IMG/VR virus record: IMGVR_UViG_3300030118_004236
Location: 1-24,743 of that record
Strand: one strand, 5' to 3'
DNA length: 24,743 nt
Source: a virus
The notes beneath the pieces are model-generated. The model saw only the letters and a list, made by a program, of their open reading frames with translations, was not told the origin of the DNA and did not search any database. The position numbers and the translations under genes are program-made. Positions 3,901 to 24,320 of this stretch are shown one piece after another; the first letter of the stretch is position 1; every line of letters starts with the position of its first letter.

Positions 3901-5774
3901 CATTTACAGTGGCAAACTTATCATCATCTATTGTTTTTACTATTACGCAGGTTAATTCTTCAAGCATTGTAGCAAGTGCAAGTTCTGGGTCAGGATATTC
4001 TGGATCAAGTGGTACAATCAAACTTCAATCTGTTGCAAGTGGCGTACTTGTAGATGTTAATAGGGGACAACTTCCAATAACTCATAACGTAGACCCTATT
4101 CCATCGGTAATGACAACTGCTGTATCCCATGCTACAGGAACCAATATTGCAGTTAGAGCATCGAGTTTACCCAGGTCTTATTCTCAAATAATTTTAGATG
4201 ACAATGCACACTTCGATAATAACTATTTAGATGATGGAACCATGATTGGGAGTGATTGGAAAATAAAATTTAAAAAGTTATCAGGTGGGTATACTACCAC
4301 ATCGCAATCTTCTACTTCTGGTGGTGCCTATGGAGGTCAAAAGGTTGGATTCCTGTATTTTGAAAACCCTGATGATATAACAGGAACATTAGGAACAGAC
4401 ACAACAGGAAATACGCTTACAGTCGGCAGTCTTGCAGGAAATGTTTTAATTACAAACTATACAATAGAGTTTGATAGCAGTAACTCTGAAACTGCCACAG
4501 AAAACAGTAAAGCATTCTTGATTGAAGATAATAGTGCTTACGAACCAACATTAGGTGGTTGCTGGATTAAAGTAAATAAAGGGTTTGGATCTACCAGTCA
4601 AAGTAACTCTGGTCTTGTTTTTGATAATGTACGAATGTTAAATGGATTTAAAAGACTTAATGCTCAAGGAGCAACGACACCAGGTATGGCATTTAATGTA
4701 ACCTCTGGCACGAATGTTCGTGTAGTATGCCAGGATTTTAATTTAGAAGATTTAGGAGAATCTACAATACAGTCTGTGTTTTCGAATCGTGTAAATGCAC
4801 AACACGCTGTAAAGTTAAAAGGTAGGTTATTCATGGGTGATATTGTATTAAACCCAGAAGATAAAGCAGAAGATCATCCAGACTGGATTGCCTATAGCGA
4901 ATTACATCAATACGATGTACGACCTGTTAGTAATGTGATTAACCTGGATGACAGGGAAGGTGGTGCAGTTACTGGTCTTGCAGTCTTGTTTAGTCGCTTA
5001 ATTATATTTAAACCACAAGCTATTTTTGTAATGAATGTTACAGATCCTTCAAATCCAAATAGCTGGAGTGTAACAGAAAGCAAATTTAATATAGGTAATA
5101 TTGCACCAGAAGGTGTAGTGGAGGTGCATGATAGCGTATTCTTTGTATTCCATGATGGTATTTATGAAGTGACATCTAATATGGTTGCAAGTTCGTCTGC
5201 AACACCATCAGTAATGAATAAAATATCATTAACCATAGAGGACCAGTTTTTATTAGCTAACAGTAAAAAAGATATTAAAGGTATCTATAACCAGAAAGAT
5301 TCAGAGGTGTTATACACTTGGAATACTGGTAGCCCAGCTACCCAGGTAGTATGGGCATATCATATTGTACTCAAGTCCTGGAGAAAAGTAGATACAACAA
5401 CCAACCTGGATATATTGGCGTATGGAGAGAATAGTTTCCCTATAGCCTGGGATAATACCGATACTGACATAAAAAAGTTTGATGTAGATGAAGCAGTAGG
5501 CATTGCCTGGAAAAGTAAACGATTTCGCATGGATTTAGATAAAAAAAGATTGATTCGTTATGGAATGATACAGTTTACAGGTACAGATACCTTAACTGTA
5601 AACGTATACCTGGATGGATCAGGCTCTGCATCATTTACTAAAGATATTACAGCCGATGGTGGCGTAAACAGGTTTCCTATCAAGCGATATGGAAAAAACT
5701 TTGAAATAGAACTAACCACTCCATCGAGTACCAATCCATTCTCGGTGGAACGAATGAGAATAGAAACGGAGTAA
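972..5774 (+). CDS. Very long tail nozzle / tail tube B-like structural protein
   Basis: This 1600-residue, Ser/Thr/Asn/Asp-rich protein has almost no Cys and no membrane segments, as expected of a beta-rich virion protein. The N-terminus carries the nozzle signature: D-F-D-G-V-L-T-N-A-D, then D-N-V-A-Q-E-I-K-N-L-K and G-K-L-E-K. This matches the 'DFxGGLxT...DNxAxxxxNxxxxxGxLxKRxG' opening of T7 gp12-like and P22 gp10-like proteins. Near the C-terminus, VFFVFHDGIYEV and TWNTGSPATQVVWAYHIVLKSWRKVD look like propeller blades of the same family. Length is about twice T7 gp12 (794 aa), so the middle part (about residues 250-1250) probably holds inserted adhesion or carbohydrate-binding domains. 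It is translationally coupled to the adaptor gene before it and three bases from the gene after it. Nozzle identity is fairly likely; roles of the insertions are unknown. Confidence 0.62.
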   Translation: MAKYIDIKDFDGVLTNADLEDLPDNVAQEIKNLKIQAGKLEKTFGAGTPSGIPSIGLSFVNTKLGTTYTVYNIFAFVSDKFTGNANESGDGFRYLLVTIDTSNLVKLWWYDPSLPDVTDHLQIEDNIVWFQTASAHGIVEDDFVLVQDCKDNASPQASISGAGVYEQADVIPSTTTVGVNTDNATGYGGSFFDLSLATGVTSKSFGGKIQSHLQVVDSISYGSPATSSDTVSQIAIASMNGKVLTLAVVDPNSVEIVVYDGSSVSDLSATQYNADKGNAGFKICSMIGFNNAIYVHYTYGSMTALNPVVKYQLTSGGAIAETVVFSSLDANASPGSYMHIANGDLYILNKGDKLYKITSSDVVTQVPFANISVTADNLRGLTSIVQTNNITSSGVASGPDVNHHYLFIAEEISGGRCQLYANDLLDTSNTNWYAQGSPFDASDVYSISSMDFKQNSSRTESVVIHYQDAPDQYVKYTTHNNTSVVNGYANVSSSTFSTSTVVNFIASTYNSPSTKYLVVGTNDVPSPASNGKLYLVDRTLVVSTVNAQTTGVKATWNPKCFADCVTETHGGQNFFEHAKGYIAIYGTESTAGSPAVDSADIYRMTDMGWLNNTWTGSGDCDYRWIDLMSYYSIKEVSTSNVTTTPSIYHKKDRNPIAVDGDNIRFLPGSVGKISNNEAKGVWLGYINRSLFNDTVSADPNWFIYANKLNNPFSISSTKIYDTGESLRPGNSVKYNVTAIYDGTQETLFDKSKEIILSDTDINKKIIELNIEFDANALNRRITGLNVYRSTEFANTTNFDGYSNYQLIGHMTFVDTQNDIPTVTDTVMTRIHSWKDNIVFLKDPDDLTSYDGETAGRNTHALETDGGFDGIDDVKNWRGATASSTSNRPFQFLVYHSELQRTMTATQGYMVVSALAKDNTLEDSDKLQLEDEAITISDTTVTSGTNTIYTSTISGSGPFTFTLNTSLTNTDEFAINDTFTVANLSSSIVFTITQVNSSSIVASASSGSGYSGSSGTIKLQSVASGVLVDVNRGQLPITHNVDPIPSVMTTAVSHATGTNIAVRASSLPRSYSQIILDDNAHFDNNYLDDGTMIGSDWKIKFKKLSGGYTTTSQSSTSGGAYGGQKVGFLYFENPDDITGTLGTDTTGNTLTVGSLAGNVLITNYTIEFDSSNSETATENSKAFLIEDNSAYEPTLGGCWIKVNKGFGSTSQSNSGLVFDNVRMLNGFKRLNAQGATTPGMAFNVTSGTNVRVVCQDFNLEDLGESTIQSVFSNRVNAQHAVKLKGRLFMGDIVLNPEDKAEDHPDWIAYSELHQYDVRPVSNVINLDDREGGAVTGLAVLFSRLIIFKPQAIFVMNVTDPSNPNSWSVTESKFNIGNIAPEGVVEVHDSVFFVFHDGIYEVTSNMVASSSATPSVMNKISLTIEDQFLLANSKKDIKGIYNQKDSEVLYTWNTGSPATQVVWAYHIVLKSWRKVDTTTNLDILAYGENSFPIAWDNTDTDIKKFDVDEAVGIAWKSKRFRMDLDKKRLIRYGMIQFTGTDTLTVNVYLDGSGSASFTKDITADGGVNRFPIKRYGKNFEIELTTPSSTNPFSVERMRIETE

Positions 5775-7228: not shown

Positions 7229-10200
7229 ATGGCAACGCCAAAAGATTTACTCGATTACGCAGGGGAAAGGTTATATCGTAACAGCCTGGATGATATATTA
7301 GATCAAATCCAGCAGGATATTGACAATGAAAGAATAGTTACCCAGGCTCGGCAAAATGCAATCGTAAACGATCCAGATCCTGTAAAAAAGTTACGAGAGG
7401 TACAGTCGATTGAAAAAAGTGTAGTAAATGAGCCACCAGAGGTCCAAGCAACTGTACTTAATCAAACTTACAACATACCGAAGCCACCAGCACCATCTGG
7501 ATTTATACAGCCAGATCCTAATCCACAGTTTACTATGGGGCAACCCAGGGGAGAGTTACAAAACCTTACAGAAGATGATATAAGGTTTCGTGCAGAGTTA
7601 GAAAGAATACAAGAGCCATTTGATCGCATATTTAATGAAAAGTTAAAAACTGCCAAAGCAATCCCTGGTAGAAATGTAACTGATCCAATGACTGGATCAT
7701 TGTTTACTACACCAGAAAAAACAAAAGAAGAAGTAGCAAGAGATCAAACTATTGACGAATTGGTAAAACAAAGAATTATAAGCGAAGATCCTTTATTGGG
7801 TGGTGCAGGGCAAAGTATTAGAACATTTCTTACAACTTTTATACCATTAGGTGGTTTAACTCCCGAAGAAAAGGCTCAACAACAAAAATTATTTCCTATA
7901 AAAAACACTTTAGCACAATTAGGTGGCACACTTACTGGTCTTTCTGGTGTCTCCAAAGTTATTAAAGCACCTAAAATCGCTCAAAAATCTTATGATGCTG
8001 TAAGGCGTGGTACAAAAATAGGAAACTTCCTTACCAAGCAGGGCATTAACACAGTAAAAGCAGGAAAATTTACAGCAAGTGCAACTACAGGTGCTGGTAC
8101 TTTTGGTGCCTATAGAGCGATAGACCAGATTGACGAAGATGCTCCAGTAGAAGATAAAGCAAAAACTATTGTAGAAGATGCCATATTCGGGGCAGGATTT
8201 GGTCTTACAGGCAGTTTTAATAATCCAGCGACAAGATCATTGGCTGAAGGTACTTTTGGCTTTGTAACGTCAAAATTATTAGAAGGTGCTACTACGCAAG
8301 AAGCATTACTAAATGGATTATTATTTGCTGGATTTGGTGTATTAAACAAAAGAAATATGAGCGATGTAGAAAAAGGCATTGCGATAAACGAGTTTAAAAA
8401 AGTTGGAGATGATTCTTTTAGAATAATACAGGATTTACGGAAACAGGTAGGTCAAAAACCATTTACAAAGTTACAAGAAAAACAATGGAAAAAATCATTA
8501 GATCAATTTGCAGAAAGGTTTCGTTATGAAAAGTACAATGCAAATGACATAAAAAAAGATACAGAAGAGTTTATAACCAGGTTTTTGCGGACCAACGATC
8601 CTAAAGGTAGTATTGCAAGAATAAGACAATTGGGAAACCAATCTAAAACACAAGCATTACAAGCAAAGGCAAAAGCAAAGAAAGAAGCAGTAACTGTACC
8701 TACTACTGGCACAGCAGATAAAGTAACCCAGGACAATGTATTAAGGCTGTCTACAGGCGAACAGTTACGAAGGATGAAAGGTCTTGGATATACAGAGGAT
8801 CAGTTCGTAAGACTATCAGGAAAAGAAAGACAAGACATCCTGGATAACAATATAAGAGAAGAAAATTTTGTAACAAAGCAACCTACCCGACCATCGATGC
8901 CTGTCCCAGGACCAGCCCCCGATGTTACGCCCTCAACGAAAAAGTCGGATAAATTGGTACCCGAAAAATTAGAACCAAAACCAAAAGAAGTAAAGCCAGA
9001 AGTAAAGCCGACAAAGGGCGAAGCAACTGGTCTAAAAACAACATCATTAAAACCAAGTGATATAAAAATAGATGAATCCAAGTTTCAGCCCAGGGAAGAA
9101 TACAACCAGGCTGTTATAGATGATATTGCTAAAAACTTTGATCCTAAAAAATGGGATGAGCCAGTATTATGGCAGGATCCTAAAACAAATGAATACATCG
9201 TTGTTTCTGGTCATCATAGGCACAGAGGTGTAGTAAAAGGTGGGTACGAATCTGCTACCTATAAAGTATTACCAAAGGGCACTACCATAGATGAAGCAAT
9301 CAATATGTCAGAGGAAGGTAATCTTGCCAGGACCGAACAATCTGCATTTGAGAACAGTAAAGTGGTTCGCAGAAGATTTAACAAAGGTGATAGCCTTGTA
9401 AAGATTGCTGATGATTTACCTGGTCTAACAAAAGCAAAAAGTAGTGCAGGAAAAAGCAATGCTGTTAGGAGAGTGTTGAACTTATCGTACCTGGACCAAA
9501 ATGGTAAATTAAAAAGTAACTATGATAGCGTTAACGAATTTCCAAGAATACAAAGCACATCATCTTATGTAGGAGCATTGAGGAGACAATATGACTGGAT
9601 GCCAGACAGATATGAAGATGATATTTTTACTTATTTGTATACGGAAAATGGCATTAGCCAGGATGATTCAGATTGGAAACTTAATTTAGAAAGTACCCTG
9701 GAAAAATTAGTAGATGTAAAGGATAGACCAGGAAGTATACTTAAACAGTTAAGGAAAGATCCATTACAGCCTAAAGAAGGCACATCTGATGAAATATTAG
9801 AGCAAATAAAAGATTTAAAAAAGTCTATAGACAATATTGGTAGCCAGTTATCTGATGATAAGTTTTTACAGCGTGAAATTGACCGAATACAGAAAGAAAA
9901 AGGATTAACCGATGTTGATGCCCTCCAGGAGGTAAAACGAGATTTACGGAAGCGTAGGGCAGAATTAAAAACAGAACTAAAAGACCTGGTAGAAGAGTCA
10001 AGTAAACCCGATCCAAACCAGGGTAGTATGTTTGAACCAGTAGATCAGTATAATATGTTTGGTGGCATAGACAGGTTATCTGATCTATCTACAAAAGATA
10101 AAAAAGTATTAGATGAGTTACACAACGAGTTATCCAGTTTAAATAGGGAGCAATATTTATTTAATCAGCAAGTTGCAGAAAAAAAGATAGGAAAATTAAA

Positions 10201-13200
10201 AGCAAGAACTACCCAGAAGAAATTAGATAAAAGATTTAAAGACGTTATCAAGCAAATGCAAAAGATTGATAAGCCTGTAAATGGTGCAACAGCAAAGCCA
10301 GGCATGGCTCTTGATATGAACAAACAAATACAATTAAATTTGTCAGGAAAGAAGCAAACAGAGTTATTTCGTGAAACAGCAACTAAAGAAGATAAAGAAA
10401 ACACCAAAATTCTCCAAAAAGGGTTATCTCGATTACGATCTCGGCTCGGGATTACTGAACGAGCAAGTTCTATCATCGCCCCCCTTGAAAAAGTTGGAGC
10501 ATCTCATTTTATTGGGCAAAAAGTTAGTGGACCAGAAGAGTTAGCCCTTATATCCCAAATCGCTCGTGATAAGCGATATGAAACCTTCCGAATATTTTTT
10601 ACCAAAAGCCAGGGTGTAAAAGATAAAATTGTAAATTATACAGCATACACCAATCGTATGCCTGGTTGGGTAAATGCTTACCCAGGACCATTTGAAACCG
10701 ATGATGTTACAGGGATACAAGCATTAACTCAATATATGTACCAGGCAATGAAAGATGCTGGTGCAGATGGATATTATCTAATGCACAATCACCCAAGTGG
10801 TCGAGTAAAAGCAAGTAAAGCAGATATAAAGATTACTAAAAAGATTGCGAAAGAAATGCCAGGTTTTCGTGGTCATGTTATTATTAATCATAATAAGTAT
10901 GGCTTAATAGACTCAAATCAAAATGTAAAACAGTTAAGATTTGATCCAGAATATCAATCTATATCAGATCCTTTAATAAATGAAAAGTATTATAATACAA
11001 TGCCAATTCATTTTAGTTCAAACGCAATTCCCATATTAAAGAAATTTCAAGAGGATGTAAAAACTGTATCTATTTTTGCGACAGATTACGAATACAGAAT
11101 ACACGCTTTAACTGATATACCATTACAAAATTTTATTGATGTTGGAAAAAAACGTAAGTATGGACTTGGTTTAGCCAAAATTAAAACCCAGTTAAGAAAG
11201 ATTGCATCTACCTATGGTGGTCAAAGAATATTTTTGGTTTCGCAATCAACAGATATAAAAAGTGATGAAGTTGAATCTGTGAATAGGGTGTGGAAAAGAT
11301 TATTTAAGGATAATTTTATTACAGATGGCTACTTTTACAATTCATACGATGATCCATCTAATTATTATTCATTAACATTTGCTATGGGTAGAAAAAAGGT
11401 TAAAGGTAATCTGGTTTTTAACCCAGGTGCAAAAGTACCAAGACAGTTAAAAGAATCAACCACTTCTCAAAAAAATATACATCTTGAGACATTAGAAGCC
11501 AAAGCAGAAGTAGATGGTATTGAACTTGATCTATCATATAATAAAAATTTAAACGCTGTAAAACTTCATCTTATTAAAATTCCAAAAGATCAAAGAAATC
11601 AGGGTATTGGCACGAGGACCATAAAGCAGATCCTTGACTATGTAGATGACCAGGGATTGCTAATGACATTGACTCCTACCAATGAATTTGGATCCAGTAA
11701 ACAAAGATTGGTAGAGTTTTATAAATCATTTGGATTCCGATTAAATAGTGGTCCATATAGGGATCTACGATTCAAAGATACAATGATACGGAAGCCTTTT
11801 AAATCTTTAAAATTAAAAGAACAGGTACAAAGTTTAGATGAAATAAAAATACAGAGAAATTTTGCAGAATGGTTTGGAGAATCAAAAGCAGTAGATATAG
11901 ATGGAAACCCAGAAGTTTTTTATCATGGAACACAAAGACCTGATCGTATTGGTTCGGTGTTTTATAAGTCCAGGGCACATAGTGGTCCTATGTCTTATTT
12001 TACCAATGATCCAGAAATTGCAAGTGGATATGCAAAAGGCAAAAGCGATGATAGCCTTATTGTAGATGACTGGTCCAGTCTTTATAGCATAGGTAAACAA
12101 AAAGGATTAAGGTCAGCCTGGTGGCAATTAACAGATCAACAAAAGAAAAACTTTAACGATAAAGCATATAAAGTTGGGCTAAATGACGATAATAAAGTTG
12201 TTCTTGATAATGATTATAGTTATATAAGTAAAAGCACCTATGACTATTTTTTAAAAGAAGCGAATGGAAATGGATTAATGGCTGTATTTAAAGCCTGGAT
12301 AGAAGGTGGATATTTTATAGGAGAAGAAGGAAGGCTATTAGAAGTATTTAAGGTTGCAGGAGTGTCCAATATGAAATATGATGATCCAAGAGCAGTAATG
12401 CCTGGAATATTTCCTGTATACCTTTCTATGCAAAACCCATTAACTACAGATAACATACCAAATAGAATTGTAGAAGGATTAAGGAAAAGATCAAAAAAGC
12501 AACCTGATCCAAAATATATGCAAGGAACAACTCCCTGGGATAAAGAAGCACGAAAGCCAGAAGATTGGATGTTTGCATTAGACGAAGATATAAAAGACAA
12601 TACTACAAGAGCCTGGACATCGATTCCAAACTGGGTAACCAAATATTTAAAACAACAAGGGTATGATGGTGTTTTAGATTTAGGCAACAAATATAGCGAT
12701 CCCTATCTTGAACCACATAGAGTAGCAATACCATTTGAACCTAACCAGGTCAAATCAAAATTTAATAGAGGTACATTCAGTAAAAGATCAAAGAACATAA
12801 TGAAAGAGCAGGAAAAAATATTCAAGAATCCTGCAAGTACATTGACCTCTATTAAGCAGTTAGAAACAAAAGCAGAAGTACCCAAGAAAGTGTATGACGA
12901 TGCAAAACAACGATCTGTAATGGATTTAGCTAAAGAGCGTACAAAAGAATTAAAAGGACCAGGATTAATTAGTAGGGCATTAACACCGATGTCTACCAGG
13001 TTAAGAGTATTAGCACCAGAATTAAAAAGAGCCATAAGAAGATTCCAGTCTAATGTAGACATTAACACTTCTAAAGATCTAAAGGTCGCTGAAAACTTTA
13101 TGAAACAGACCGACAAATTGCGAAGAAAAAACAAGCAAGACTATGCTGTCTTGGATCTTGCAATGAAGAATAGCGATCTAAAAAGGGCACAAGAAATATT

Positions 13201-14893
13201 AGATAAGTATGATATGGGTTCAGAGTTTGTTAAAGTTCGTAATATGCTTGATAATATATATGTTCGTGCAGAGATGGTTGGATATGAGCCTAATTATTTA
13301 AGTGACTACTTTCCAAGAAAGATTAAAGATAGCGATGGGTTAATGGGCTACCTGGAAGCATCAGACTCCTGGGGAATTATACAAAGCAATATAAAATCAA
13401 AAGAAACAGAGTTAGGTAGACGATTAGAAAAAGATGAACGATTAAAACTAATTAACAATTTAATTCGTGGATTTGGTGGAAGGTTAGGTATACAAAGACC
13501 AGCAAACTTAAAAGAAAGAGAAATAGAGTACCTGGACAGTGAATTAAACGAGTTTTATTTTGACAGCAATACAGCATTGCATAAATACATTGTGCAAATG
13601 AATGAAGCCATTGAGATCAAGAGGTTTTTTGGTAAAGGGATGGGACCACAAGATCCAAACATCCAGGTAGATAATAATGTTATTGGGGAGTATGTAGACA
13701 CTTTATTAGACCAGGGTATCATCAAATCTACCCAACAAGATGAATTAATTAACCTGTTGCGAATAAGGTTTGCCCAGGGACCAATGGATCCGAGAATGGC
13801 AAAAACAAGAAATACTGCATATTTATTTACAATGGGGCAGTTATCAAGTGCTGTTACCCAAATCGGAGATTTAGCCTGGTCCATATATAATGCAGGAGTA
13901 ATGGAAACAGGTAAATCATTAGGTAAATCTGCTGTAGGTAAATCAATCTTAACCAGAAAAGATATAGGTATTGAAAAGATTGCCCAGGAGTTTACAGAAA
14001 CAGACAAAGCACATAAGATATTAGATAATGTGTTTACATTGACTGGACTTAAATACATTGATTCTCTTGGTAAAGAATCATTAATTAACGCAACCATATC
14101 AAAATATCAAAAACAAGCCAGGAAAGGAAAATTTAGTAGCAAGTTACAAGAAAGATTAGATGAAGCATTTGATAAGAAAGAATTACCAAAGGTTATCGCA
14201 GATCTTAAATCAGGTGAGGTAACAGATGATATAAAGTACCTGGCACATTATATCTTATCTGATTTTCAACCTGTTAGTCTTACAGAGATGCCAGAGTTTT
14301 ACTTGAAAGCACCAAATGGCAGAGTAATGTATATGCTTAAGACTTATACAATGAAGCAATATGATATTATTCGTAACGAGTCATTTAAGAAAATGAAAGA
14401 AGGCAAAACTGTTAAAGAAAAGGCAGAAGGATTAAAAAGGCTCATTTATCTTGCAAGTGTACTTATGCTAACAGGTATGTCATCGGATAAAATAAAAAAT
14501 TATCTGTATGGAAGAGAGCAGGAATTTGATGAAATGATTAGTGATAATATGTTAAGACTTGTCGGGTTCCAAAAATATTTACTATGGCATTTTAGACGAT
14601 ATAAAAATGTAGCCTGGACAACAGTAAAAGCATTGGTTCCACCAGTAGGTGTATTTAATCCTGTATTTGAAAGTTTTATTCGTGACCTGGACAAATATCA
14701 AAGAACAAAAAGAAAAGGCGAAGAGTTTAAAATACCAGGGGATACAGAAAGTGTAAAGAACATACCTATCGTTGGTAGGTTGTATTATAACTACTTTGGC
14801 AATGGTGAAAAGTTTCATGCTGAACGTAAAGCAAAAGAAAAGGAAAAGGGTAATAAAAAACGTAAAAAAAGAAATAAAAGACCTCCTATATAA
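7229..14893 (+). CDS. Giant polyvalent ejection protein: ParB-like + RadC/JAMM + GNAT + ADP-ribosyltransferase + helical C-terminal region
   Basis: This 2554-residue protein lies where podoviruses encode their largest ejected internal protein, so it is probably carried in the virion and injected. Visible parts in order: Gly-rich hydrophobic segments (about 190-380); a Pro/Lys linker (about 551-604); a ParB-like domain (about 605-735) with FQPREEYNQAVIDDIA and VVSGHHRHRGV; coiled coils (about 855-925); a RadC/JAMM-like domain (about 1090-1230) with E1118 and the exact HxHx7SxxD motif (H1186, H1188, S1196, D1199); a GNAT-like domain (about 1420-1530) with RNQGIG 1456-1461 and FYKSFGF; an ADP-ribosyltransferase-like domain (about 1545-1860) with YHGT 1565-1568, YFTNDPEIA, GYDGVL and QVKSKFNRGTFS 1840-1851; then an all-helical region to the end resembling large polyvalent-associated domains, with a very basic tail. 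Such domain mixes are known from 'polyvalent proteins' of phages and plasmids thought to act in the newly entered cell. Enzyme activities are inferred. It has no RBS and abuts the previous stop. Confidence 0.75.
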   Translation: MATPKDLLDYAGERLYRNSLDDILDQIQQDIDNERIVTQARQNAIVNDPDPVKKLREVQSIEKSVVNEPPEVQATVLNQTYNIPKPPAPSGFIQPDPNPQFTMGQPRGELQNLTEDDIRFRAELERIQEPFDRIFNEKLKTAKAIPGRNVTDPMTGSLFTTPEKTKEEVARDQTIDELVKQRIISEDPLLGGAGQSIRTFLTTFIPLGGLTPEEKAQQQKLFPIKNTLAQLGGTLTGLSGVSKVIKAPKIAQKSYDAVRRGTKIGNFLTKQGINTVKAGKFTASATTGAGTFGAYRAIDQIDEDAPVEDKAKTIVEDAIFGAGFGLTGSFNNPATRSLAEGTFGFVTSKLLEGATTQEALLNGLLFAGFGVLNKRNMSDVEKGIAINEFKKVGDDSFRIIQDLRKQVGQKPFTKLQEKQWKKSLDQFAERFRYEKYNANDIKKDTEEFITRFLRTNDPKGSIARIRQLGNQSKTQALQAKAKAKKEAVTVPTTGTADKVTQDNVLRLSTGEQLRRMKGLGYTEDQFVRLSGKERQDILDNNIREENFVTKQPTRPSMPVPGPAPDVTPSTKKSDKLVPEKLEPKPKEVKPEVKPTKGEATGLKTTSLKPSDIKIDESKFQPREEYNQAVIDDIAKNFDPKKWDEPVLWQDPKTNEYIVVSGHHRHRGVVKGGYESATYKVLPKGTTIDEAINMSEEGNLARTEQSAFENSKVVRRRFNKGDSLVKIADDLPGLTKAKSSAGKSNAVRRVLNLSYLDQNGKLKSNYDSVNEFPRIQSTSSYVGALRRQYDWMPDRYEDDIFTYLYTENGISQDDSDWKLNLESTLEKLVDVKDRPGSILKQLRKDPLQPKEGTSDEILEQIKDLKKSIDNIGSQLSDDKFLQREIDRIQKEKGLTDVDALQEVKRDLRKRRAELKTELKDLVEESSKPDPNQGSMFEPVDQYNMFGGIDRLSDLSTKDKKVLDELHNELSSLNREQYLFNQQVAEKKIGKLKARTTQKKLDKRFKDVIKQMQKIDKPVNGATAKPGMALDMNKQIQLNLSGKKQTELFRETATKEDKENTKILQKGLSRLRSRLGITERASSIIAPLEKVGASHFIGQKVSGPEELALISQIARDKRYETFRIFFTKSQGVKDKIVNYTAYTNRMPGWVNAYPGPFETDDVTGIQALTQYMYQAMKDAGADGYYLMHNHPSGRVKASKADIKITKKIAKEMPGFRGHVIINHNKYGLIDSNQNVKQLRFDPEYQSISDPLINEKYYNTMPIHFSSNAIPILKKFQEDVKTVSIFATDYEYRIHALTDIPLQNFIDVGKKRKYGLGLAKIKTQLRKIASTYGGQRIFLVSQSTDIKSDEVESVNRVWKRLFKDNFITDGYFYNSYDDPSNYYSLTFAMGRKKVKGNLVFNPGAKVPRQLKESTTSQKNIHLETLEAKAEVDGIELDLSYNKNLNAVKLHLIKIPKDQRNQGIGTRTIKQILDYVDDQGLLMTLTPTNEFGSSKQRLVEFYKSFGFRLNSGPYRDLRFKDTMIRKPFKSLKLKEQVQSLDEIKIQRNFAEWFGESKAVDIDGNPEVFYHGTQRPDRIGSVFYKSRAHSGPMSYFTNDPEIASGYAKGKSDDSLIVDDWSSLYSIGKQKGLRSAWWQLTDQQKKNFNDKAYKVGLNDDNKVVLDNDYSYISKSTYDYFLKEANGNGLMAVFKAWIEGGYFIGEEGRLLEVFKVAGVSNMKYDDPRAVMPGIFPVYLSMQNPLTTDNIPNRIVEGLRKRSKKQPDPKYMQGTTPWDKEARKPEDWMFALDEDIKDNTTRAWTSIPNWVTKYLKQQGYDGVLDLGNKYSDPYLEPHRVAIPFEPNQVKSKFNRGTFSKRSKNIMKEQEKIFKNPASTLTSIKQLETKAEVPKKVYDDAKQRSVMDLAKERTKELKGPGLISRALTPMSTRLRVLAPELKRAIRRFQSNVDINTSKDLKVAENFMKQTDKLRRKNKQDYAVLDLAMKNSDLKRAQEILDKYDMGSEFVKVRNMLDNIYVRAEMVGYEPNYLSDYFPRKIKDSDGLMGYLEASDSWGIIQSNIKSKETELGRRLEKDERLKLINNLIRGFGGRLGIQRPANLKEREIEYLDSELNEFYFDSNTALHKYIVQMNEAIEIKRFFGKGMGPQDPNIQVDNNVIGEYVDTLLDQGIIKSTQQDELINLLRIRFAQGPMDPRMAKTRNTAYLFTMGQLSSAVTQIGDLAWSIYNAGVMETGKSLGKSAVGKSILTRKDIGIEKIAQEFTETDKAHKILDNVFTLTGLKYIDSLGKESLINATISKYQKQARKGKFSSKLQERLDEAFDKKELPKVIADLKSGEVTDDIKYLAHYILSDFQPVSLTEMPEFYLKAPNGRVMYMLKTYTMKQYDIIRNESFKKMKEGKTVKEKAEGLKRLIYLASVLMLTGMSSDKIKNYLYGREQEFDEMISDNMLRLVGFQKYLLWHFRRYKNVAWTTVKALVPPVGVFNPVFESFIRDLDKYQRTKRKGEEFKIPGDTESVKNIPIVGRLYYNYFGNGEKFHAERKAKEKEKGNKKRKKRNKRPPI

Positions 14894-15304: not shown

Positions 15305-18300
15305 ATGTTTGTAGGTGTAAGTACAGCCCTAACTGCTGTAAGAAGTGTCCTAAAGAAATTTGTTCGTCAAGGATTAAAGCTTTATTACAGGTTTTCAGAT
15401 ACCAAACCAGACTTTCTATTAGATGGTAGTACAACTTTTTCTGGTAGTTCACAATATATTGATTGTGGTACTGGATTAGGCAATGTTTTAGGAGATAACT
15501 ATGCTGGAGACTTAACAGTATCTATGTGGTTTAAAGCAGATGTTACAAGTGGCGATGATGGTATGTTTGAGATAGGCAACTTTACTAATAGCGGAACTGG
15601 TGATTTTGCATTAAGAATGAAATCTAATACCCTATCATGGATGGTTAATGCAGTTAGAAGATTAGACGTTTCTTATACAAATACATCATCTTGGAGTCAT
15701 GTAGTTGGAGTATATGATTCAAGAGGAGCAGACTTTACAAAATTATATTTAAATGCAGAAAGTGTTGGAACTCCAACTGGTACATTTCCATCTGCATCAG
15801 ACCTTGATTTAAATGGACTAAAAACAACTATTGGTGGGTACTATGGTTCTCCGTACACTTTTGATGGCAAGATAGCTAATGTAGGTATATGGAATAGAGC
15901 CTTATCGGCAAGTGAGGTAGAATCTATCTACTGGAGAGGTAGTCATTCAGAACTACAAAATACAGAACTAACCAACCTTGTATCTTGGTATGATTTACAA
16001 GGCGATGTATTAGACAAGCAAGGCTCAAACAATGGAACGAATAATGGTGCTACATTAAACACTGATTCCTACTCTGGAGAATCACCATTCAAACCTCGTA
16101 TTCAAGATAAAGCAACACCAAAGATGGCTGTTCAATTAGCCGATGGTTCTACTTCGTTTGATGGTGCAGATAGTTATATTAATTGTGGTTCGGATTCTTC
16201 TTTGGATAATATATGGAATGGTGGTGGAACATTATCTGCATGGATATTTCCAGAATCAGATGGTGAGGGAGATGATGGAAGAATAGCAGAAAAAAGAGAT
16301 ACTGGTGATGGTTGGACTTTTACTACAAGAGAACAAAGTGGTAGCAGTTGTAAGTTAAGAGTATTTATCAATTTTAGTTCAACTAATGGTGTATACACTT
16401 CTGGAGCAGATGTTACAATTAATGATTGGAATCATGTAGCAGTAGCGTATGATTCAAGTGGTGCTGGTTCATCATATAGACCAGTTATATATATAAATGG
16501 AAGTGTATCAGCATTAAGTGCAACAACAGACTCTGTAGGTACAGCAGATTCCGATGCAAGTGAAGATTTTACAATAGGAGGAAATAAAGCACAAACAAGA
16601 ATTTTTGATGGAAAGATAGCAAACGTATCTGTTCACTCATCCTCCTTAACACAATCTCAAATACAAGAGTTGATGTTTACAGAGAAATACTCTGGCTTAT
16701 CAGCAGACCTAAAGACAAATCTGGTATCTTGGTATGACTTGGGTAGTACAAGTCTTGGAAGTGAGTTGGTAGATGAAGATGCAAGAACATTTGATGGTAC
16801 TGGTACTCATTCATGGGGAATCTACGGAAGTAATACTGTTTCAAATGTTGATAACAATCTTGTTGTTACATATGTAAGTGATGATAGAGGTGCAAAACTT
16901 GTTTTATCTGATGCAAATGATTTGAATACCGACCTTACTGCTGGTATTACATATCAAGTAACCATGAATGTAAAAATAAATACAGGAGATGCTGTTATTC
17001 GTGTTTACAATGGTTCAAATTATGAATCAATAGGAACTATAGACAGCACTTCATTTACTGATGTAACAGGAACATTTACAGCACAAAGTGGAACTCGAAC
17101 ATTGAACTTTGACAATATGGGTTCTGGTGAAGTTATTACTGTAAATGAGTTTTCTATAAAAGAAGTTCAAGCACCAGATTCAGAAGGAACTAACGAAGGT
17201 TCTATATATGGAGCCACAACCAACACAGGATACACACATTCACCACATGGCGTAGTAGACCCATTAAACTTTGGCGAGACGTACTCTGGAAGAGCATTGT
17301 CATTTGATGGTACAAATGATTCAGTTAATCTTGGTGTTGTTCCAAATTATAGTAGTGCAAGTGGTTCTATTTCTATATGGATATATTCACATAACAATTC
17401 AACTCCATCTTTACAAGGAATTGTAACAAATTCAAGTACAGGAACAGACCAGCATTTTCTTGGAATAGGAAGTAGTAAAGTTAGATATAGTGCAACCAAT
17501 TCAAGTTCTATATTTACAATTTTTGCAGATTCAGAATTAGTAGAAAATCAATGGACTCATGTAGTAGCTACCAGAAGTTATGATGGTGCTAACACTACAA
17601 CTAAATTATACATTAATGGAGTATTACAAACAGATTCTGATACATTTTCTGGTTCTCAAGTAGCCAACTCAAATAACATTTTAATTGGTCATTTGAATGT
17701 AGATAGATACTTTGATGGAGAATTAAATAACTTAAAAATATTCAATACTGCATTAACCCAAGACCAAGTACGAGAACTATACACCAAACCAGAAACAGTA
17801 TTGCCTACTGGAGTATCTGCATCGAATCTAAAGTTAGACCTACCAATGCAAGAAAAAGCTGGTTCCATTATATATGATGGTAGCGGTAATCAGAATCATG
17901 GAACAATTACTGGAGCAACTTTTGTAACTGGTGAAGAGTATGGCTATCAAGCAAGTTTAGTACGCTCTAATACTCCAATTATATTCGATGGCAGTAATGA
18001 TTTTGTAAGTTGTGGGAATATAGGAATAAGAAATTATCCTTTTACATACTCTGCATGGTTTAGGACTAATGGAACAACCAAAAATACAATCTGTGCTTTA
18101 TGTGATGCAGACCAAAATGTAAAATTTTATCAGTTTTTAATTGCCGATACAGGGGTAGCAAGAATCAATGCAAGAAATACTGCTGATGATTTTTGTGATT
18201 CATCTGGTACATATAATGATGGAAAATGGCATCATGGAGTAGCGGTATTTGCATCTGCAACAGATAGAAAAATCTATATTGATGGAGTTGCTGATGGTAG

Positions 18301-19846
18301 CGACACGTCTTCCGTAGCATTTGATTCTGGAGTTGATGAGTTTAGCATAGGAGTTTTGAATCGCTCATCTAAAGCAGATTACTATGATGATGATATAAAT
18401 GAAGTAGCAGTATGGGATGTTGCTCTTGATGCTGATGCTGTATCTGCACTTTATAACTCTGGTGTACCTTTACTGCCAACATCTGATTCTGGTAATTATG
18501 ATAATTCTGATAGCCTTATGGGGTACTGGCGTAATGATGGTAAACCTACTTGGACTGATAGAGCCAATACAGGAGTAGCGAGTTTTGATGGTACTGATGA
18601 TTATATATCTATGACAGATACAAATTTTCCAAGTGGCTCATCAGATAGAAGTATAAGTATATGGTTTTCTCCAAACACAACAAGCACAGAACAAAATCTA
18701 TTTCATTATGGTACTGATGCTACTGCTCAAAGGATAAGTATACTTGGTAATAATACAAGTGTTGCATTAGGAATTAATGGATGTAAGGTAGGTATTGAAA
18801 GTTTAAGTCTTGCAAATACTTTTACTAATATAGTATTTATTATAAAAGGGCATACAGATGATACTGAACTATATATCAATGGTGTTTCTCAATCTCTATC
18901 TGTTCTTGCTGGAACAGCACAAAGCATTAATACTACTTTAAATGGTACAGCATACATAGGTAGACACTACTCTGCTACTTATTGGAATGGTAAAGTAGCA
19001 GGTGTTAATGTTTTTAATACTGCATTAACAGCAACTGAAATATCTGAACTATATGCTATAGATAAACGCTCCAGTATATCTGGACATTCCCAATTTAATA
19101 ACTGTGTAGGCTCTTTGCTAATGGGTGCTGGAGATGGAGATTCAACATCTACTATACAAGACCAAACATCTAACAACAATGATGGTACTGTTAATGGTGC
19201 AAGTTTAATAGGATATAACGATGGTACTGCATCTGGCTCACCAGTAGAAATACTTATCCCAGAAGGAAGTACAGAAGGTAGAGATAATCAAGGCTACTAC
19301 CTATCAGACACAACCTTAATTAGTAATGGCATACGTCTATTTGGAAGTGAGTATATAGAGGTAAAAGATTCGGAATCTTTAGATTTTGTTGGTGGATTTT
19401 CTATTGATTGCTGGGTAAAACCAACAGACTCTGGAAATGGTAATCAAATGATTTTAAGTAAAAATAATAATACAGATGGCTATCGTTTTCAACTTACAAA
19501 TTCAACAAAAACTATACAAGCATTAGTTGAAAAGGATAACAATCATGCAAGTGTTACTGTTAATTCTACAACAGCGTTGCAAAATGACACCTATTACTTT
19601 ATCAGCCTAACATACGATGGTGCTAAATCATCTGGGGTTACAAAACTATATGTTAATGGAACATTAGAAGCGACTAATACAAGCGGAACTGGTTTAGATA
19701 ATACATCTTTAGATTTACAAATCGGTAGGCATTTAACATCAAGTTATTTTAGTGGCAATATTGATGAAGTTCGTTTTTACGACAAAGAATTATCAGCATC
19801 AGAAGTATTAAAAAATTACAACAGTGGAAAATCATCCCATCAATAG
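15305..19846 (+). CDS. LamG-repeat tail fibre / receptor-binding adhesin
   Basis: This 1513-residue protein consists largely of six LamG/concanavalin A-like lectin modules, starting near residues 42, 282, 665, 894, 1092 and 1341. Each follows the same plan: FDGxxDYVxxG, a (S/T)xSxWI strand, WxHVVxxYDG, KLYINGV, IGxxxxxxxFDGxIxNVxIWNxAL, then SxxEVxELY. Between modules 2 and 3 (about 488-625) lies a different jelly-roll-like segment ending in EVITVNEFSIKEV, resembling a carbohydrate-binding module. LamG folds bind glycans, so this is the likely receptor-binding protein. The N-terminus (MFVGVSTALTAVRSVLKKF) may be the virion anchor. It has no chaperone or autocleavage motif. Base use differs from the rest: no CCWGG site at all, and Ala-Trp is written GCA TGG rather than GCC TGG. 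This suggests the module was acquired separately. The RBS is weak. Confidence 0.8.
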   Translation: MFVGVSTALTAVRSVLKKFVRQGLKLYYRFSDTKPDFLLDGSTTFSGSSQYIDCGTGLGNVLGDNYAGDLTVSMWFKADVTSGDDGMFEIGNFTNSGTGDFALRMKSNTLSWMVNAVRRLDVSYTNTSSWSHVVGVYDSRGADFTKLYLNAESVGTPTGTFPSASDLDLNGLKTTIGGYYGSPYTFDGKIANVGIWNRALSASEVESIYWRGSHSELQNTELTNLVSWYDLQGDVLDKQGSNNGTNNGATLNTDSYSGESPFKPRIQDKATPKMAVQLADGSTSFDGADSYINCGSDSSLDNIWNGGGTLSAWIFPESDGEGDDGRIAEKRDTGDGWTFTTREQSGSSCKLRVFINFSSTNGVYTSGADVTINDWNHVAVAYDSSGAGSSYRPVIYINGSVSALSATTDSVGTADSDASEDFTIGGNKAQTRIFDGKIANVSVHSSSLTQSQIQELMFTEKYSGLSADLKTNLVSWYDLGSTSLGSELVDEDARTFDGTGTHSWGIYGSNTVSNVDNNLVVTYVSDDRGAKLVLSDANDLNTDLTAGITYQVTMNVKINTGDAVIRVYNGSNYESIGTIDSTSFTDVTGTFTAQSGTRTLNFDNMGSGEVITVNEFSIKEVQAPDSEGTNEGSIYGATTNTGYTHSPHGVVDPLNFGETYSGRALSFDGTNDSVNLGVVPNYSSASGSISIWIYSHNNSTPSLQGIVTNSSTGTDQHFLGIGSSKVRYSATNSSSIFTIFADSELVENQWTHVVATRSYDGANTTTKLYINGVLQTDSDTFSGSQVANSNNILIGHLNVDRYFDGELNNLKIFNTALTQDQVRELYTKPETVLPTGVSASNLKLDLPMQEKAGSIIYDGSGNQNHGTITGATFVTGEEYGYQASLVRSNTPIIFDGSNDFVSCGNIGIRNYPFTYSAWFRTNGTTKNTICALCDADQNVKFYQFLIADTGVARINARNTADDFCDSSGTYNDGKWHHGVAVFASATDRKIYIDGVADGSDTSSVAFDSGVDEFSIGVLNRSSKADYYDDDINEVAVWDVALDADAVSALYNSGVPLLPTSDSGNYDNSDSLMGYWRNDGKPTWTDRANTGVASFDGTDDYISMTDTNFPSGSSDRSISIWFSPNTTSTEQNLFHYGTDATAQRISILGNNTSVALGINGCKVGIESLSLANTFTNIVFIIKGHTDDTELYINGVSQSLSVLAGTAQSINTTLNGTAYIGRHYSATYWNGKVAGVNVFNTALTATEISELYAIDKRSSISGHSQFNNCVGSLLMGAGDGDSTSTIQDQTSNNNDGTVNGASLIGYNDGTASGSPVEILIPEGSTEGRDNQGYYLSDTTLISNGIRLFGSEYIEVKDSESLDFVGGFSIDCWVKPTDSGNGNQMILSKNNNTDGYRFQLTNSTKTIQALVEKDNNHASVTVNSTTALQNDTYYFISLTYDGAKSSGVTKLYVNGTLEATNTSGTGLDNTSLDLQIGRHLTSSYFSGNIDEVRFYDKELSASEVLKNYNSGKSSHQ

Positions 19847-20389: not shown

Positions 20390-20619
20390 GAACATTAGTA
20401 CGAGTTATAACTATTCTGTTGCTTACCAGTTTTCTGGGATGCAGTCAAGGGTGGAGCGTAGGAGGTGTTGTTCTCACTCCACAGGATACTGTTCAAAATA
20501 CAGTGTTTATAGAAATAATGGATGCTGATTCTAATATGCACTACTATCATGGAAATATTTATAGCACTCAAAATTGGTGCTGGTTGCATCATCAGTTTGA
20601 GGACATAGCACATGAATGA
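20386..20619 (+). CDS. Small phage lipoprotein (possible outer-membrane spanin-like or lysis accessory)
   Basis: The 77-residue product starts with a basic N-region (MRTLVR), a hydrophobic core (VITILLLTSF) and a lipobox-like FLGC with Cys19. This is a type II signal peptide that would yield a mature lipoprotein of about 59 residues. The mature part (SQGWSVGGVVLTPQ...) has no recognised domain and is not Pro-rich, unlike typical Rz1. It overlaps the gene before by 4 bases and the membrane protein gene after by 8 bases, so it is part of the lysis cassette. It could be a spanin component, or a lipoprotein that blocks superinfection; the sequence does not decide between them. Confidence 0.5.
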   Translation: MRTLVRVITILLLTSFLGCSQGWSVGGVVLTPQDTVQNTVFIEIMDADSNMHYYHGNIYSTQNWCWLHHQFEDIAHE

Positions 20620-20911
20620 AATCGCAGATCTTTATTTACAATTAGGATCAGCAGGATTTATTGCTGTCCTTTTTGGGTTTATGATATACAACCTCATACA
20701 GAGTCAAAAAGAACAAAGTGAGGACCTGGAAGAAATCAAACAGTCAATACATAAAATGGAATCAGTTATAGATCAATTAATGGGAGTATCTGTAAAACTT
20801 ATAGATAGACACAATCGTGGTGATGAAAAAAGAGAAGAGTTTTGGAGAGAGATAAGTGACGATCTTTCTTTCATAAAAGCAAAGTTATCAAATGGGCATG
20901 GAAGGCATTAA
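20612..20911 (+). CDS. BhlA/UviB-like holin candidate (N-terminal membrane helix, C-terminal coiled coil)
   Basis: This 99-residue protein has one membrane segment at about 12-31 (GSAGFIAVLFGFMIYNLI), followed at once by a charged coiled coil (QSQKEQSEDLEEIKQSIHKM) and a charged end. A single N-terminal helix with a charged helical tail is the plan of BhlA/UviB-type holin-like proteins. It would sit in the inner membrane and help release the GH108 enzyme encoded 0.7 kb downstream. It overlaps the lipoprotein gene by 8 bases and the next gene by one base. An i-spanin role is an alternative, since i-spanins have the same topology and are often next to a lipoprotein gene. Confidence 0.5.
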   Translation: MNEIADLYLQLGSAGFIAVLFGFMIYNLIQSQKEQSEDLEEIKQSIHKMESVIDQLMGVSVKLIDRHNRGDEKREEFWREISDDLSFIKAKLSNGHGRH

Positions 20912-21386: not shown

Positions 21387-21629
21387 GTGCCAGAACAGTA
21401 TGATAATAGTGGTGTTCTTTTCGTCAATGACAGAAAAGAAAAAGACAGTCAACCTGACTATACAGGCAATATAGTCATGGGAGGAGTAAAGAAACGATTA
21501 GCAGGATGGAAAAAGACCTCCAAGTCGGATCCATCTATGACCTTTCTTTCAATCAGCGTATCTGACTTCCAGGATAAAAAGGAAGAGCCAGTACAGCAAA
21601 CATCAGACCAGGATGACTTACCATTCTAA
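21387..21629 (+). CDS. Small SSB-tail protein (single-strand DNA-binding-like, DUF736-like pattern)
   Basis: This 80-residue protein starts at GTG behind the best RBS in the window (AAGGAGA at 21374-21380, six bases upstream). The pattern SGVLFVNDRKEKDSQPDYTG, then GWKKTSKSDPSMTFLSISV, is that of a common family of small phage and bacterial proteins with an OB-like beta core. The last residues, DQDDLPF, match the acidic tip (DDxPF) by which SSB proteins recruit replication and repair partners. This indicates a nucleic-acid role or mimicry of SSB. Its place between holin-like genes and the endolysin is unusual for such a protein. Its stop overlaps the endolysin start by one base. Confidence 0.55.
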   Translation: MPEQYDNSGVLFVNDRKEKDSQPDYTGNIVMGGVKKRLAGWKKTSKSDPSMTFLSISVSDFQDKKEEPVQQTSDQDDLPF

Positions 21630-22139: not shown

Positions 22140-22165
22140 AGTTCAACAATATATAGTATAACTTG

Positions 22166-22210
22166 TGGCTACGGACCAGAAGGTTGGGGGTTCGAATCCT
22201 CCCGGGCGTA
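22166..22210 (+). other. attP core: 3' end of a tRNA-Arg(ACG) gene
   Basis: The segment matches the 3' part of a tRNA: anticodon loop CTACGGA (22169-22175, anticodon ACG), 3' anticodon stem CCAGA, variable loop, T stem GGGGG/CCTCC with T loop TTCGAAT (22191-22197), acceptor 3' strand CGGGCGT and discriminator A (22210). CCA is not encoded. Bases left of about 22166 no longer pair with the anticodon stem (G opposite G), which marks the edge of host identity. There is no D arm or 5' acceptor strand, so this is not a complete tRNA gene. Carrying a tRNA 3' end beside a tyrosine integrase is the classic arrangement for restoring the host tRNA upon integration. Confidence 0.82.
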
Positions 22211-22219
22211 CTTGACGAC

Positions 22220-22280: not shown

Positions 22281-22321
22281 TACAGGGAAGGGTAATAAAC
22301 CCGTCCCAATTCCGTCCCAAT
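22281..22321. repeat. Right arm of attP: direct repeats CCGTCCCAAT spaced 11 bp
   Basis: TACAGGGA (22281-22288) mirrors the left-arm TCCCTGTA. CCGTCCCAAT then occurs at 22301-22310 and again at 22312-22321, a period of 11 bases (about one helix turn), the second copy running into the integrase stop codon. Same-face tandem sites next to a core are what lambda-type integrases bind with their N-terminal domain. The assignment is inferred from layout. Confidence 0.55.
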
Positions 22322-23280
22322 CATAATTGATTAATAATTGGGGCGAGTCTTTCAACATTGATCTTAACATATTGAGCAGTAACATCATCAGCCTTATGTC
22401 CTAATAGGCATTTGGTATCCCACCTGGTAGCACCGAACTCTTCCAGGTGAGATGCGAATGAATGGCGAAAGGAATGCAGATCGCCTTTACCTAATATCTT
22501 TTTAAGTCTTTCTCTGGAGTTACCAATAGATCCTGGTTTCATTATGTTAAATATATCCATCTTCTTCAAATCATTATGTAAGGGAACCACAACAATTCTT
22601 GGCTGGTCATACTCTTGTGTTTTGTCCTGGGATAATTGTATAAACTTTCCATTGATGTCGTTAATGGTTAGCGTACAGGCATCCCTGGCTCGTAATCCTG
22701 ATTTATACAACAAGGACCAGAATCGTTTATCGTGGTCCAGCCAGGCTTCGTTTATAGCGTAGTTTACTTCTTCCCTGGTAAATGCTTCCCTGGGGCGAAC
22801 TTTGACCAGTTTTGGGCGAATTAGACCGCTTGTAGGGTTCTTTAACATATAACCCATAACAATCATCCACTCACAAAAGTTGCTAATAATTTTATGGTCC
22901 TCATTGATAGTCTTTGGTGACCTTCCCATTGCTTTACGCTTGGCAAAGTATTCCTGTAATAAAAATGAAGTAAGATGCTTGTTGGTTATGCCTGGGTTGT
23001 TACCCATAAATACATTAAGGGCTGACTTAATACATTGTGCTTGTTTCGTACCCTTATTACTCATCACCTGGTCGATGTATTGCCTGTAGGGTATCTGTAG
23101 ATCTATGGTTGCTACCTCTACACCTGATCGTTGTAATGCAATCTCCTGGTCCCATTTAGCCTGGATGCGGATGGCTACTTTTTTGTCTGCGGTACCAGTA
23201 GACCTTTTAACTCTGGTTGGACCATCTCCTGATGTATAATACCAGTAAGGCGAACCTTTTCTTTTATATATACGACTCAA
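22321..23280 (-). CDS. int: Tyrosine-family phage integrase
   Basis: This site-specific recombinase joins attP to the host tRNA-Arg gene. All catalytic residues are visible: Arg in SGLRARDACTL, Lys in LSQDKTQEYD, His and Arg in LHSFRHSFASHL, His in CLLGHK, and the nucleophile Tyr in TAQYVKINVERL. The N-terminus SRIYKRKGSPYWYY is the usual arm-binding start, and a SAM-like core-binding domain follows (about residues 60-150). I chose the TTG at 23280 because it overlaps the repressor stop (TTGA) and puts SRIYKRKG at the start, giving 319 aa. A TTG at 23310 would add ten residues inside the repressor gene. Neither has a good RBS, so translation probably depends on coupling to the repressor. The stop lies on the attP right-arm repeat. 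Confidence 0.92.
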   Translation of the reverse strand: MSRIYKRKGSPYWYYTSGDGPTRVKRSTGTADKKVAIRIQAKWDQEIALQRSGVEVATIDLQIPYRQYIDQVMSNKGTKQAQCIKSALNVFMGNNPGITNKHLTSFLLQEYFAKRKAMGRSPKTINEDHKIISNFCEWMIVMGYMLKNPTSGLIRPKLVKVRPREAFTREEVNYAINEAWLDHDKRFWSLLYKSGLRARDACTLTINDINGKFIQLSQDKTQEYDQPRIVVVPLHNDLKKMDIFNIMKPGSIGNSRERLKKILGKGDLHSFRHSFASHLEEFGATRWDTKCLLGHKADDVTAQYVKINVERLAPIINQL

Positions 23281-23984
23281 GACTTGGCTTCTATATCCCC
23301 ATTGACCCAATAATAATAAGAACGTACAACTCCTTCTTCTTTATCCCAATACGCTTCTATATTATACATAGCATACGCACCATGTTTTCCTTTCCAATAA
23401 ACGTGTTTCCAAATTGTATGCTGAAACTCTGGAGAATCTTTCAATGCCTGGTTCATATTAGCAATAATTAGTTCCAAGCTATCAGGATGAAACATTCCTA
23501 ACCAGGTGTCAGGCTCTAATGATTTAAGTTCATCGATGGAATATCCTGTCATCGATGTATCACCTGTTACTTCATATTTACTAAACGTATTGGTTTCTAA
23601 ATCCCAATTAGCTTTAGTTTTAAAATGAAATGCTGGTTTGTTTTTGACTTCTTTGTTTTTTTGCACAATGGCAGTAAGACGATTAATCTCTTCTTGTTGA
23701 TTGTCAATCTTTTCTTTTTGTAAATCAATTACATATCTTGCATCCACAATGCTATCCTCCTTTTGTATGTTTGTATTAGTTAATTCTATTTCTTTATGAA
23801 AATCTTTTATTTTTATATCATATCTATCGCAATACCACTTTTGATATGATGTAGGTAAACTTTCCCTACTTTTCCAGTTTGCCAATTTCGCAGGATCTAC
23901 CTTAATTAATTCTGCTACTTGATGATCAAACTTATATCCTTCTTTGAGTTTTATTGACATTATAAAATCTTTTACTGTTCCCAT
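23277..23984 (-). CDS. CI-like phage repressor with a C-terminal PAS sensor domain
   Basis: This 235-residue protein begins at the ATG at 23984, preceded by AGGGG five bases upstream. A GTG at 23990 would add two residues but sits on the RBS. Residues 1-60 resemble the phage CI helix-turn-helix domain: a helix containing QVAELI, then VDPAKLANWKSRESLP. About 75-110 is a coiled coil (VIDLQKEKIDNQQEEINRL), likely for dimerisation. About 115-235 follows the PAS_3 pattern: MTGYSIDELKSL, WLGMFHPDSLELI, MNQALKDS, F.HTIWKHVYWKGKHGAYAMY, AYWDKEEGVVRSYYYWVNGDI. No LexA-type Ser/Lys peptidase or cleavage site is visible. It would repress the divergent early genes and control int, which it overlaps. HTH identity is likely. 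PAS identity is based on sequence pattern alone. Confidence 0.75.
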   Translation of the reverse strand: MGTVKDFIMSIKLKEGYKFDHQVAELIKVDPAKLANWKSRESLPTSYQKWYCDRYDIKIKDFHKEIELTNTNIQKEDSIVDARYVIDLQKEKIDNQQEEINRLTAIVQKNKEVKNKPAFHFKTKANWDLETNTFSKYEVTGDTSMTGYSIDELKSLEPDTWLGMFHPDSLELIIANMNQALKDSPEFQHTIWKHVYWKGKHGAYAMYNIEAYWDKEEGVVRSYYYWVNGDIEAKS

Positions 23985-24116
23985 AGACACCCCTATTTAT
24001 AATTAATATAAAATGATATAAAAAAATATATTGTATCAAAATATATTAGATTATATATTCTATCAAATTATATGATAATTTATGAATTTAATATCAACAA
24101 GATACAGTAAGGCACA
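23985..24116. promoter_or_regulatory. Divergent repressor/early control region with TATCA/TGATA half-sites
   Basis: This very AT-rich gap separates repressor and Xis/Cro-like genes. TATCA occurs at 24034, 24061 and 24092, and TGATA at 24014 and 24073. TATCAAAATATAT (24034-24046) and TATCAAATTATAT (24061-24073) are near-identical direct copies 27 bases apart. TGATA/TATCA pairs give imperfect inverted repeats at 24014-24038 and 24061-24077. A rightward promoter fits TTGTAT (24031-24036), 17-base spacer, TATATT (24054-24059), with half-sites overlapping and flanking it as expected of operators. A leftward promoter is likely, but AT content prevents a unique choice. Confidence 0.55.
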
Positions 24117-24320
24117 ATGGAAAACAACAGAAACATACAATTATTAACAACAGAACAGGTGAGAGACATATTGGCACTGAAGCGTACCAGGGATGTATTA
24201 ATGTTGATTAAAACAGGAGAACTACCAGCACAGCAGTTAAGTGCCAGGCAGTATCGAGTAAAACAAGTAGACCTGGAGAAGTACATCGATAGCAAGATGT
24301 ACCAGGTTGCAACCATATAA
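24117..24320 (+). CDS. Excisionase/Cro-like helix-turn-helix protein
   Basis: This 67-residue protein follows the MerR/Xis-type 'helix-turn-helix 17' plan: LLTTEQVRDILALKR, then DVLMLIKTGELPAQQL and YRVKQVDLEKYIDS. It is the first rightward gene after the repressor operator region, the place of Cro or Xis. It could direct excision by binding the attP arms, or repress the lysogeny promoter, or both. RBS is weak (AAGG 4 bases upstream). Function beyond DNA binding is inferred from position. Confidence 0.7.
   Translation: MENNRNIQLLTTEQVRDILALKRTRDVLMLIKTGELPAQQLSARQYRVKQVDLEKYIDSKMYQVATI

Follow-up and report, generated by a model that had tools for sequence, protein, structure and literature searches.

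The window, that is, the complete stretch of 24,743 bases from an uncultivated virus analysed here, encodes a putative lysogeny repressor in which a CI-like helix-turn-helix (HTH) domain is joined through a coiled coil to a domain predicted to adopt the PAS fold. Related proteins are found in other uncultivated phages, which have swapped the DNA-binding and PAS halves among one another. This exchange is a stronger observation than those of the initial annotation of this DNA, where it was missed. We consider it probable that the protein is a non-SOS lysogeny repressor operating in a switch of the P2-like C-int/cox kind and that it is gated by its PAS sensor.

Domain anatomy of the putative repressor

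The open reading frame starts with an ATG at position 23984 and ends with a stop codon at 23279–23277; a GTG sits two codons upstream of the ATG (Table 1). PHROGs, NCBIfam and PADLOC searches of the 235-aa protein returned no match of weight, and Pfam did not match it to Phage_CI_repr (PF07022), for which its own profile score was not significant. The CI-like HTH proposed in the initial annotation is supported by the helices of the AlphaFold model and by the related protein L012, which shares 60% identity with the window protein in the DNA-binding domain and passes the Phage_CI_repr cut-off (26.2 bits vs 22), as do L022 and L011. The predicted long helix likewise bears out the coiled coil, in which the a/d residues I86, Q89, I93, Q96 and I100 are invariant in a first eight-member alignment.

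Table 1. Features of the repressor region in the window (position 1 is the first base of the window).
Feature	Position	Strand	Basis
Possible attP core, like the 3' half of tRNA-Arg (anticodon region, T-arm GGGGGTTCGAATCCTCC)	22165..22212	+	Read by eye
Tyrosine integrase	22321..23280	-	Pfam PF00589, E 2.2e-10; PHROG 1 integrase, E 1.6e-33
Putative lysogeny repressor, HTH-coiled coil-PAS protein	23277..23984	-	235 aa; ORF call, Pfam, AlphaFold, Foldseek
PAS domain type A, residues 121-226	23307..23624	-	Pfam PAS_3, AlphaFold, Foldseek; conserved in alignment A6
Coiled-coil linker, residues 82-114	23643..23741	-	AlphaFold long helix and alignment
CI-like HTH domain, residues 4-54	23823..23975	-	AlphaFold helices 4-15, 20-26, 31-40, 45-54; L012 profile match
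A+T-rich divergent intergenic region, 132 bp, candidate operators	23985..24116	.	3 TTGATA/TATCAA and 5 TGATA/TATCA sites
Excisionase/Cox-like HTH_17 protein, 67 aa, first gene of the opposite operon	24117..24320	+	Pfam HTH_17, E 1.1e-7; weak NCBIfam 'excise', 6.3e-5

For the C-terminal half, Pfam PAS_3 (PF08447) matched residues 144–189 with an E-value of 5.4e-5. At 23.8 bits the score lies just below the cut-off of 25.6 bits, so that Pfam's own rule leaves the protein outside PAS_3; four of nine type-A family members (see below) match the profile individually at E<=0.1. An AlphaFold2 model built with nine related phage proteins (alignment A6) gives residues 121–226 the order b-b-a-a-a-b-b-b, that is, a five-stranded antiparallel sheet with the helices between strands 2 and 3 as in the PAS fold, with pLDDT values mostly of 84–92 and of ~75 in two ten-residue blocks. 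When this model was compared with the PDB by Foldseek, all 50 of the 50 matches listed were PAS structures (ARNT/HIF PAS-B, LOV-PAS) at a probability of 1.00, with a best E-value of 4.7e-4 and a target TM of up to 0.76. The best BFVD match, the unnamed protein A0A516M3Q0 (245 aa), aligned over its full length (263 columns, E 5.6e-7). Another BFVD match, R9ZZL0 (gp108 of Cellulophaga phage phi19:1), was set aside because a sequence check placed it next to lysis genes and found no HTH match. The annotated PAS domain is thereby confirmed at the level of profile and predicted structure; neither an S24 domain nor a non-PAS fold, the two outcomes named beforehand as speaking against it, emerged from the profile search or the structure prediction.

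Absence of an S24 peptidase and of canonical cofactor residues

Pfam, PHROGs and NCBIfam revealed no S24 or other peptidase in the window protein, which together with the predicted PAS fold agrees with the earlier statement that a self-cleaving LexA/S24 domain is missing. Across the 18 phage records that carry the family, Peptidase_S24 was found above the cut-off in none, while it was detected in 12 of 14 control genomes. An S24-like match below the cut-off, to a 241-aa ORF in the L042 record, was taken as a chance match (DUF932-like by eye). Nor was a RecA-responsive site found in the window protein. Inspection for canonical haem or LOV residues showed that the window PAS domain has no Cys and that helix 167–182 (Falpha) lacks a conserved His; other modes of binding are possible. 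No residue diagnostic of a canonical cofactor was seen, and a sensing role is accordingly assumed on the strength of the fold.

Two PAS types in a family of uncultivated phages

Scanning of IMG/VR with the repressor protein, the integrase and alignments of repressor parts identified HTH-coiled coil-PAS proteins at ~24 distinct uncultivated phage loci. At most of these, the gene lies just ahead of the integrase, with an excisionase-like or Cro-like gene of the HTH class read divergently. All relatives stem from uncultivated phages, the contigs of which are partly fragmentary. Two scans of GTDB genomes with the repressor or PAS alignment and a tblastn search of isolated phages (INPHARED) yielded no relatives, and a plasmid search gave nothing beyond a weak match to a Moraxella HTH of the Cro/CI type.

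The family comprises two main PAS types with only about 25% identity to each other. Type A, which closes with YYYWVNGDIE, is present in the window protein, L012, L014/L018, L019–L025 and L027, whereas type B is present in L001/L002, L008/L009 and L040–L042 and, as a subtype, in L004, L006, L011 and L030–L036. No Pfam PAS match was obtained for type B, and its six-member alignment was split in two because it was too diverse for scanning. The topology of the type-B model equals that of type A, and the Foldseek PDB matches listed for it are PAS, LOV, PYP or phytochrome structures, the best E-value of 5.4e-3 being weaker than for type A. A third C-terminal type was observed in L007 (264–668), which has the DNA-binding domain of L008/L014 (96–98% over 51 residues).

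Exchange of the DNA-binding and PAS halves

Clustering of the DNA-binding domains of 25 proteins at 50% identity gave ten groups, three of which contain both PAS types. One such pair is formed by L008 (type B) and L014 (type A), with 99% identity in the DNA-binding domain and 16% across the short alignable C-terminal part. Their DNA is ~98% identical up to about position 3530 of L008, drops to about half, and climbs again where the integrase gene begins. The converse case is provided by L012 and L025, whose DNA-binding domains differ by a dN of 0.95 as compared to a dN of 0.04 and a dS of 0.34 for the PAS domains. A similar contrast is seen between L034 and L011, with a dS of 0.69 in the DNA-binding domain and of 0.04 in the C-terminus. 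The junction of the exchanged halves is the coiled coil. The length from coil to PAS is constant within each type, and the changes observed in four relatives are +7, +4, +3 and -4 residues; these fit heptads or stutters, which is compatible with a role of helical phase, although four cases are too few for proof.

In most type-A pairs, the dN/dS ratio of the PAS domain is about 0.12–0.2. The domain, which is in addition kept on unlike DNA-binding domains, is thus maintained by selection as a working part of the protein. This purifying selection speaks against the idea that the C-terminal domain is merely PAS-like, i.e. a decayed or unrelated fold, which could be argued from a PAS_3 score just short of the Pfam cut-off and from PDB sequence searches that returned nothing useful. 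Considering also the Foldseek probability of 1.00 to many PAS domains and the independent modelling of type B as PAS-like, we regard this idea as highly improbable.

The swapping of halves among related viruses suggests that dormancy is tied to a cue of the host cell other than DNA damage. We tentatively propose, as a reading that could well prove wrong, that uncultivated temperate phages of one widespread family assemble their repressors from two exchangeable cassettes, in which the DNA-binding domain would set the immunity type and the PAS domain would set the host cue (a small molecule, redox state or other) that holds or releases lysogeny, and that these cassettes recombine in nature across the conserved coiled coil, much as sensors with PAS domains have been engineered.

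Gene order and candidate operators

The integrase gene starts with a TTG, a start inferred from relatives, and thereby overlaps the repressor stop codon by 4 nt (TTGA), which substantiates the overlapping integrase of the initial annotation. The identical 4-nt overlap is found in L001, L004, L006, L011, L012 and L019–L022. In the window (22321–24320) as well as in L001, L004, L006, L012, L014 and L022, the repressor-integrase operon diverges from the excisionase-like gene, a layout as in the P2-like C-int/cox region. In L023 and L024, a small Cro-like gene (HTH_3) lies opposite the HTH-coiled coil-PAS gene and is followed in L023 by HTH_17; this is a CI/Cro layout.

This repressor position argues against a role other than that of master repressor, in which the protein would control the integrase or some other promoter, be it of the phage or of the host. 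Such a role has a precedent in VqmA of vibriophage VP882, the established phage PAS transcription factor, a DPO-binding activator of the antirepressor gene qtip that coexists with a distinct CI (PMC8284805, PMC12802170). The HTH of the window protein is CI-like, unlike the LuxR type of VqmA, and the nine records searched gave few further HTH_3 or CI-type matches, most of these being the HTH-coiled coil-PAS gene itself or the Cro-like gene facing it. Because the records are fragmentary, a further repressor or antirepressor could lie beyond them. On balance, we consider it rather improbable that the protein is such a regulator, and prefer the lysogeny repressor.

Candidate operators were sought in the 132-bp divergent region. 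TTGATA/TATCAA, a motif picked out by eye in L001, where it is frequent, and in the window, occurs there three times as compared to 0.38 expected (P 0.007); the five TGATA/TATCA sites have a P-value of 0.003, and the intergenic region of L001 contains four TTGATA/TATCAA sites. Regions upstream of genes from other HTH lineages, as far as tested, had no TTGATA, and neither did that of L012, which shares the DNA-binding lineage of the window. A repeat finder detected no direct repeats, and an unbiased k-mer scan of the region was not significant. Since the motif was hand-picked, is missing in L012 and does not stand out in the unbiased scan, we take its enrichment as supportive only. Of the 'operator array' annotated initially, the TTGATA excess thus stands and the unbiased scan does not bear it out. 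Likewise, of the 'complete candidate switch', the repressor-integrase operon opposite the HTH_17 gene is borne out by gene order, whereas the operators within it depend on a single motif rich in A+T.

Other features of the record were noted. The tRNA-Arg-like 3' half adjoins the integrase and is not followed by CCA. At 21387–21629 and 20612–20911, a single-strand DNA-binding-like protein (PHROG) immediately ahead of a GH108 endolysin was recorded, together with a weak match to an Rz-like spanin. Positions 7229–14893 encode a polyvalent protein of 2554 aa that matches ADP-ribosyltransferase (ART-PolyVal) and RadC-like domains and, weakly, ParB_N and GNAT. The protein of 1513 aa encoded at 15305–19846 contains six Laminin_G_3/concanavalin-like domains and may function in receptor binding or adhesion. 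The 1600-aa ORF at 972–5774 has no matches in Pfam, PHROG or isolated phages.

A model for PAS-gated lysogeny

In the proposed mechanism, the CI-like HTH would bind to operators located between the two divergent operons, within the 132-bp region, and thereby silence the opposite operon with the excisionase-like gene and early genes. The transcript encoding the repressor would also yield the integrase by coupled translation, following the logic of the P2 C-int/cox region. The coiled coil would keep the dimers together, and the C-terminal PAS domain would detect a signal inside the host, which the coiled coil would relay to the HTH to modulate dimer geometry or DNA binding. Lysogeny would then depend on the PAS cue and be independent of RecA; we infer that a small-molecule or redox cue may hold or release it.

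The main rival to this model likewise assumes a lysogeny repressor. In this case, however, the PAS domain would bind no ligand and would take the place of the CI C-terminal domain in bringing about dimerisation or oligomerisation only, and induction would proceed via a separate antirepressor or an SOS-controlled peptidase. PAS domains commonly dimerise, and VqmA depends on its PAS domain to do so (PMC8284805); antirepressors are available to phages whose repressor lacks a peptidase (PMC10432266), and the missing cofactor signature would fit as well. Dimerisation is already supplied by the coiled coil, however, and each of the two PAS types is retained and swapped as an entire module, type A being conserved even on unlike HTHs, which is more than dimerisation seems to require. 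We therefore consider a ligand-free PAS domain unlikely, if a serious contender, and retain the PAS-gated repressor as our working model.

A repressor with a built-in sensor would represent the most direct pathway of its kind, in that a single protein suffices and an antirepressor is unnecessary. The natural pairs, in which one DNA-binding domain is joined to PAS type A or B or one PAS domain to differing DNA-binding domains, are ready-made chimeras for probing the PAS cue. Should a ligand emerge, a DNA-damage-independent inducer would be at hand for a phage group known solely from metagenomes.

Comparison with known systems

Searches of the open-access literature turned up no phage repressor of lysogeny that itself bears a PAS domain, subscription papers and preprints lying mostly outside this scope. 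VqmA resembles the window protein as a phage-encoded PAS transcription factor that influences the lysis-lysogeny decision. In VqmA, the PAS domain is N-terminal and the LuxR-type HTH C-terminal, whereas the order in the window protein is HTH-coiled coil-PAS. Moreover, VqmA is an activator of qtip beside CI, while the window protein is apparently the repressor itself.

Lambda-type CI likewise combines an N-terminal CI-like HTH with a C-terminal effector or dimerisation half, and the Cro-like gene opposite the repressor recurs in L023 and L024; where CI carries the self-cleaving S24 domain, the window protein has a PAS domain. PpsR and the haem-PAS protein FG214, bacterial one-component regulators of the HTH-PAS kind, also pair a PAS sensor with an HTH, and both are among the type-B Foldseek matches. 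They are cellular regulators with another domain order and other HTH families, and their likeness to the phage family is one of predicted structure.

In the immunity region of phage P2, the C repressor and int share one transcript that diverges from cox. Phages P2 and 186 provide a likeness in layout: in the window, too, repressor and integrase are proposed to share a transcript, with a small HTH gene of the excisionase-like kind read in the opposite direction, and the repressor has no S24 peptidase. The likeness concerns the layout; the P2 C repressor is short and lacks both the coiled coil and the PAS domain that the window protein possesses.
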